NCBI GenBank assembly: GCA_900110395.1
Contig: FODP01000012.1
Span: 62,001 to 126,000 of the forward strand
Source of the DNA: Rhodospirillales bacterium URHD0017
GTDB taxonomy: Bacteria; Pseudomonadota; Alphaproteobacteria; Reyranellales; Reyranellaceae
Direction: 5' to 3'
DNA: 64,000 nucleotides
Positions 35,569 to 35,730 of the stretch are shown in pieces. The notes under the pieces were generated by a model. The model saw only the letters and a list, made by a program, of their open reading frames with translations, had not been told where the DNA came from and did no database searches. Within the stretch, counting starts at the first letter, position 1; the number at the start of each line of letters is the position of its first letter. The translations under genes were made by a program, and so were the position numbers.

Positions 35569-35730
35569 CCTCTCCCCCGCGAGGGGGAGAGGCTAGGTGA
35601 GGGGGAATCGACGGGTGTAGCCCCCCCCCCCCACCCCCCCCCCCCCCGGGGGGGGGGGGGGGGGGGGGGGGGGGGGAAAATCGACGGGTGTAGCCCCCTC
35701 ACCCAACCTCTCCCCCTGGCGGGGGAGAGG
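35569..35730. repeat. Palindromic repeat with expanded C/G tract between mreB and mreC
   Basis: The outer palindromes (35569-35592 and 35707-35730, CTCTCCCCC cores) match the elements at 40545 and 52972. Inside, the loop AATCGACGGGTGTAG occurs twice, separated by twelve C, A, fourteen C (35621-35647) and twenty-nine G (35648-35676). The insert is absent from the other copies. Confidence 0.85.

Follow-up and report, generated by a model that had tools for sequence, protein, structure and literature searches.

A C-run and G-run between duplicated loops in the mreB-mreC gap of Rhodospirillales bacterium URHD0017 is probably a short-read hairpin artefact

Sequence-specific errors after inverted repeats in Illumina reads were described by Nakamura et al. 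(2011), as cited in PMC3622629, PMC4787001 and PMC4719071. Passages of PMC3622629 and PMC4719071 give back-folding of the template as the cause, and a passage of PMC4787001 disputes that folding is responsible. A second source of error, set out in a passage of PMC6637168, concerns two-colour Illumina instruments, for which the absence of signal is indistinguishable from G. Our literature search found no paper on an assembled form in which a hairpin loop, a run of Cs, a run of Gs and the same loop follow one another. We examined such a form in the assembly of Rhodospirillales bacterium URHD0017 (contig FODP01000012.1), where the palindromic repeat at 35569-35730 of the window (the whole stretch of DNA that was analysed, 64,000 nt) carries its 15-nt loop twice, with C12-A-C14-G29 between the loop copies (Table 1). 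Judging from the sequence, we consider it very probable (about 0.96) that this tract is an artefact of short-read base calling and assembly in a strong hairpin repeat, and that it is absent from the DNA of the organism.

Table 1 Features of the mreB-mreC gap and normal copies of the repeat in the window
Feature	Position	Strand	Remark
mreC, from the likely ATG (MAIRDEFEVA...)	34595-35491	-	
Left arm, CCTCTCCCCCGCGAGGGGGAGAGG-CTAGGTGAGGGGG (= CCTCTCCCCCGCGAGGGGGAGAGGCTAGGTGAGGGGG)	35569-35605	+	Proximal arm, correctly read
Loop AATCGACGGGTGTAG, first rendering	35606-35620	+	
C12 (35621-35632), A (35633), C14 (35634-35647)	35621-35647	+	27 nt together
G29	35648-35676	+	
AA, two additional bases at the boundary	35677-35678	+	Small errors
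Loop AATCGACGGGTGTAG, second rendering	35679-35693	+	
Right arm, CCCCCTCACCCAACCTCTCCCCCTGGCGGGGGAGAGG	35694-35730	+	Proximal arm, correctly read; agrees with the consensus of normal copies
mreB, 346 aa	35747-36787	-	Upstream of the repeat with respect to the operon
Normal sister copy, single 15-nt loop AAGCGACGTGCGTAG	40545-40633	+	About 89 bp
Normal sister copy, single 19-nt loop	52972-53064	+	

Re-reading the sequence confirmed the letters that the original prediction had described at this site, two loops around the C/G tract, as well as its statement that the sister repeats at 40545 and 52972 have one loop each and lack the tract. Reading frames on the minus strand likewise agree with its placing of mreB and mreC on either side. 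It did not mention that eight further tracts of this kind occur in the repeat family, nor the copies that are rewritten on one side. The tract adds 73 bp to the mreB-mreC intergenic region and creates spurious reading frames, for example at 35001-35702 on the minus strand and at 35536-35979 on the plus strand.

Several other features of the window are recorded here in their own right. An alphaproteobacterial permuted (two-piece) tmRNA lies at 59898-60225 (Rfam RF01849, 255 bits). Imperfect repeats of about 70 nt are arrayed in a coding-like region at 23563-25589, an array suggestive, from its sequence, of a repetitive surface or autotransporter-type protein. A tandem repeat of about 1 kb (3-1000 and 1079-2076, spacing 1076 bases) is 76-89% identical, and two related stretches in tandem, 42356-43091 and 43125-43860, share 73-77% DNA identity, the first of them overlapping an ORF for an SDR-like oxidoreductase.

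The element underlying the tract is an ordinary palindromic intergenic repeat. It is a short palindromic unit with many intergenic copies, as in REP-like repeats, and a small hairpin ends each arm of the normal form. Across the genome (an 8.18-Mb assembly of 62 contigs, with the reversed sequence as control), about 120 arm matches were found per strand when up to 3 mismatches were allowed, and the arm-loop-arm pattern matched 74 times on each strand versus 14 times in the reversed control. In most of the other arm-loop-arm matches, the loop is single, normal and at least 14 nt long, and dozens of sister copies in the assembly have one loop and no tract. The loop of the window copy, AATCGACGGGTGTAG, is itself found in identical form at G000:C29:234634-234662, where it is present once and the tract is absent. 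The left arm of the window copy agrees with TCCTCTCCCCCGCTAGGGGGAGAGGCTAGGTGAGGGGG, the consensus of 41 normal copies. In the sister copy at 52972-53064, the right arm starts with CCCCCCC, a T being replaced by C (CCCCCCCACC where other copies have CCCCCTCACC); either the same miscalling in a milder degree or a true substitution could lie behind this. No Rfam family matches the repeat, and a plasmid search with the normal copy gave no match at the sensitivity applied. As a separate observation, an arm design nearly that of window 35569-35730, CCCTCTCCCC..GGGGAGAGGG..GGTGAGGGG-loop-CCCCTCACCC..CCCTCTCCCC, is seen in Azospirillum, Rhodanobacter and Sphingomonas (L098, L110, L126, L131, L140).

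Examining all tracts of the genome revealed a family-wide pattern. C10G10 occurs nine times in this genome and not once in the reversed control, far above chance. All nine tracts with at least ten Cs followed by at least ten Gs lie inside copies of this one palindrome family, so that the tract is confined to strong inverted repeats, and no tract insertion was found outside the hairpins of this genome. Besides the window copy, the affected places are C9:81816, C15:110302, C20:149612, C25:193323, C25:221917, C29:393042, C37:59362 and C38:72395. Each of the nine sits between two copies of that repeat copy's own loop. These loops vary among the affected copies (about 15-19 nt), and all are duplicated, apart from errors of one or two bases at their borders; an extra T or A similar to the AA of the window copy appears at other affected copies (L001, L002, L003, L006, L008). 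The C run and the G run together measure 54-57 nt at eight of the nine loci and 63 nt at the ninth. The free variation in length between loci that is expected of a genuine expansion of the phase-variation type was not seen among these nine tracts. Predicted hairpins (DNA parameters) were slightly more stable in affected than in unaffected copies (-46.4 versus -42.1 kcal/mol, p = 0.02). Short loops were more frequent in the affected copies (7/9 versus 16/41), but not significantly so (p = 0.06). Strong copies are not all affected: the window copy at 40545 has a predicted stability of about -49.6 kcal/mol and is yet normal.

The same assembly also contains copies in which only one arm is rewritten. 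At C39:55841, the loop is followed by C24 in place of the right arm. This is exactly the length of the normal CCCCCTCACCCAACCTCTCCCCCT, so that every A and T has turned into C without any change in length. G28 stands in place of the left arm before the loop at C19:62433, and a G run does so at C37:289074, each of them corresponding to C in the direction of reading; C23:116043 shows a right arm rewritten in part only. A further locus, C23:154750-155250 (L143), holds the same flank and element twice around NNNNNNNNNN, a scaffold gap of ten Ns. In the left version, the left arm is good and the right arm degraded; in the right version, the left arm is degraded and the right arm correct. This duplication of flank and repeat is a scaffolding error in the public assembly, and its pattern is the one expected from two sets of reads that enter from opposite sides and each fail in the second arm; it is unlike the product of a biological expansion. 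Throughout the one-sided and N-gapped copies, it is the arm distal to the entry of the read that is wrong and the proximal arm that is right. A genuine expansion would be expected to be independent of assembly gaps and contig ends; here, a gap of ten Ns lies in an affected copy, and N gaps and contig ends are found at the tracts of other genomes. The few contig ends of this genome that were examined did not stop in this repeat and thus lend the artefact reading no support.

We propose that the true copy in the organism most likely consists of the left arm, one 15-nt loop and the right arm (about 89 bp), and that its arms pair as a very strong G+C hairpin. A short read that comes in from the left would render the left arm and the loop correctly and then fail in the second arm, where the remaining A, T and G would be called C over the roughly 27 nt to the apex and G from there on. 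In reads that come from the right, the same failure would occur on the other strand and show up as Gs on the plus strand. Two half-right versions would result, left arm-loop-C27-Gn and Cn-G27-loop-right arm, and the assembler would overlap them at their self-complementary C/G junction, producing left arm-loop-C~27-G~29-loop-right arm. At the window locus, C12-A-C14 (35621-35647, plus strand) would thus be an artefact, namely what rightward reads made of the C-rich distal (right) arm, and G29 (35648-35676, plus strand) would be what leftward reads, on whose strand it is C, made of the distal (left) arm. The second loop (35679-35693) would then be the one physical loop viewed from the opposite side. 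The exact chemistry of the failure, and the joining of the half-right versions by the assembler through the C/G junction, are what we infer from these forms.

The Gs that follow the Cs may come from the no-signal calls of two-colour instruments. Poly-G tails of such instruments were rejected as a full account by themselves, because the loop is followed by Cs whichever way it is read; some of the affected JGI '...DRAFT' records, we presume, may also predate two-colour instruments. Within the artefact reading, a small share of our confidence goes to a variant in which the polymerase switched templates in the hairpin during library amplification, yielding real chimeric molecules that were sequenced correctly. 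This variant also predicts two loops and a dependence on hairpin strength, but in L146 and L142 one arm has its A/T turned into C with no change in length, which resembles substitution and is what a failure of base calling, unlike template switching, would give. In our view, the errors are probably carried by the reads rather than by PCR products of the library. As base calling and template switching are both technical artefacts, the choice between them leaves the biological conclusion unchanged.

The lengths of the runs followed the arm of the host hairpin. The normal right arm, CCCCCTCACCCAACCTCTCCCCCTGGC, measures 27 nt from loop to apex, as does the normal left arm. Throughout this genome, where normal arms are 26-28 nt to the apex, C runs are 26-33 nt and G runs 27-30 nt, and the 18 runs deviate by -1 to +6 nt from the loop-to-apex distance of the distal arm; the C run of 33 nt at L009 is above what its arm predicts. 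Among other genomes, the C run correlated with the loop-to-apex distance (r = 0.84, n = 12 tracts), and C and G runs taken together correlated with the arm at r = 0.64 (n = 23). Arms near 25 nt were mostly accompanied by C runs of 20-28 nt, and arms of 36-38 nt (Sphingomonas L079 and L121, Mesorhizobium L127) by C runs of 36-41 nt. A k-mer palindrome made by the assembler (about 56, that is k+1 for k = 55) was rejected as the only explanation of the constant length, because arm length fits this genome equally well and also explains the longer runs in L079, L121 and L127. We retain the palindrome solely as a step that may help to join the two versions.

Scanning GTDB with one genome per species and C20G20 as the query returned at least 100 stretches, and the matches listed are all whole-genome-shotgun draft records. 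The loop-C-G-loop form, in unrelated hairpins with unrelated loops, was found in at least 14 stretches from 11 organisms: Variovorax, Alysiella, Malonomonas, three Sphingomonas, two Azospirillum, Ancylobacter, Rhodanobacter and Mesorhizobium. Loops at such tracts in other genomes are 12-49 nt long. Rhodanobacter L110 and Sphingomonas L126 each have a scaffold gap of Ns beside the tract, and a further 12 tracts lie directly at the end of a contig.

We further compared genomes of the same genus. MreB was found in all 61 genomes searched, with about 97-100% identity in full-length matches, and the MreC start after mreB is conserved in relatives. The C10G10 tract occurred in none of the 60 same-genus genomes, several of which have many matches to the arm-loop-arm pattern yet no tract. 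This is as expected of a dataset-dependent error, and taken alone would also be compatible with a real, species-specific feature. Among the orthologous mreB-mreC gaps in the genus, no relative has this repeat copy with the tract, nor does any relative have an orthologous full copy of the repeat; the gap holds other palindromic repeats or none, and so gives no sign of a conserved role of this copy in the mre operon. In L011, L013, L014, L016, L022, L026 and L029, the gap contains a different intergenic palindrome or inverted repeat, and since several same-genus genomes carry such elements there, it seems to be a frequent landing place for them.

The original prediction had favoured a tandem duplication of the loop with homopolymer expansion, which could stall polymerases within the mre operon, and had named an assembly artefact as the other possibility. 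Were the tract real, hairpin-templated slippage in the cell would have duplicated the loop and expanded the C/G junction, and the resulting long C/G cruciform might act as a pause site for replication or transcription in the mreB-mreC gap. In favour of this reading, G/C-armed hairpins are able to promote slippage, the tract has unique flanks on both sides in the assembly, and its form in the window copy folds very stably in silico (-82.7 kcal/mol). Such an origin would, however, need nine independent and identical events in one genome, each acting on the loop of its own copy and yielding runs of almost the same length, equal to that of the opposite arm, and it would have to recur in unrelated bacteria with unrelated hairpins. 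Nor would it explain why single arms are rewritten with their length unchanged, or why one copy was assembled twice around an N gap, and the tract is missing from the 60 same-genus genomes. We therefore regard a real tract at this site as very improbable, and give just as little credence to the wider proposal that strong G/C hairpins of this species have time and again doubled their loop and extended into C~28G~28 arms in vivo, which, if true, would place very long G/C cruciforms in intergenic regions, the mre operon included. The artefact reading draws strong support from the family-wide pattern, the one-sided and N-gapped forms, the match between runs and arms, and the unrelated drafts. Indirectly, the many normal copies in this assembly, one of them with the identical loop, also display the short single-loop form that the original prediction had named as the mark of an assembly error. 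The flanking direct repeats could in addition be accounted for if a small C28G28 element had inserted and duplicated the loop as its target site. This reading was rejected as scarcely credible, since the 'duplication' coincides exactly with the loop in every case although loop lengths differ (about 15-19 nt here, 12-49 nt elsewhere), the 'element' is nothing but Cs and Gs with a length that follows the arm of the host hairpin, and none lies outside the hairpins of this genome.

A loop, a C-run, a G-run and the same loop within an inverted repeat are thus best taken as the mark of a wrong consensus in a public genome. This signature should not be mistaken for a regulatory hairpin, a mobile element or a phase-variable tract. 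As it recurs in species-representative genomes across phyla, automatic screening for it is possible.

With REP-like intergenic palindromic repeats, the element shares its short, palindromic, intergenic and multi-copy nature and a hairpin with a variable loop, a likeness of form that concerns the underlying repeat and not the C/G tract. The tract is closer to the Illumina errors at inverted repeats which, in the passages cited above, set in once a self-complementary stretch has been read, differ between read directions and arise in G/C-rich hairpins. Those passages describe raised mismatch rates in reads, whereas here the error takes in a whole arm and persists in the consensus as a C-run and G-run with a duplicated loop. 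Poly-G overcalling by two-colour instruments offers a partial parallel: lost signal called G would account for the G after the C, in contrast to the run that starts at the loop, which is C in either read direction.
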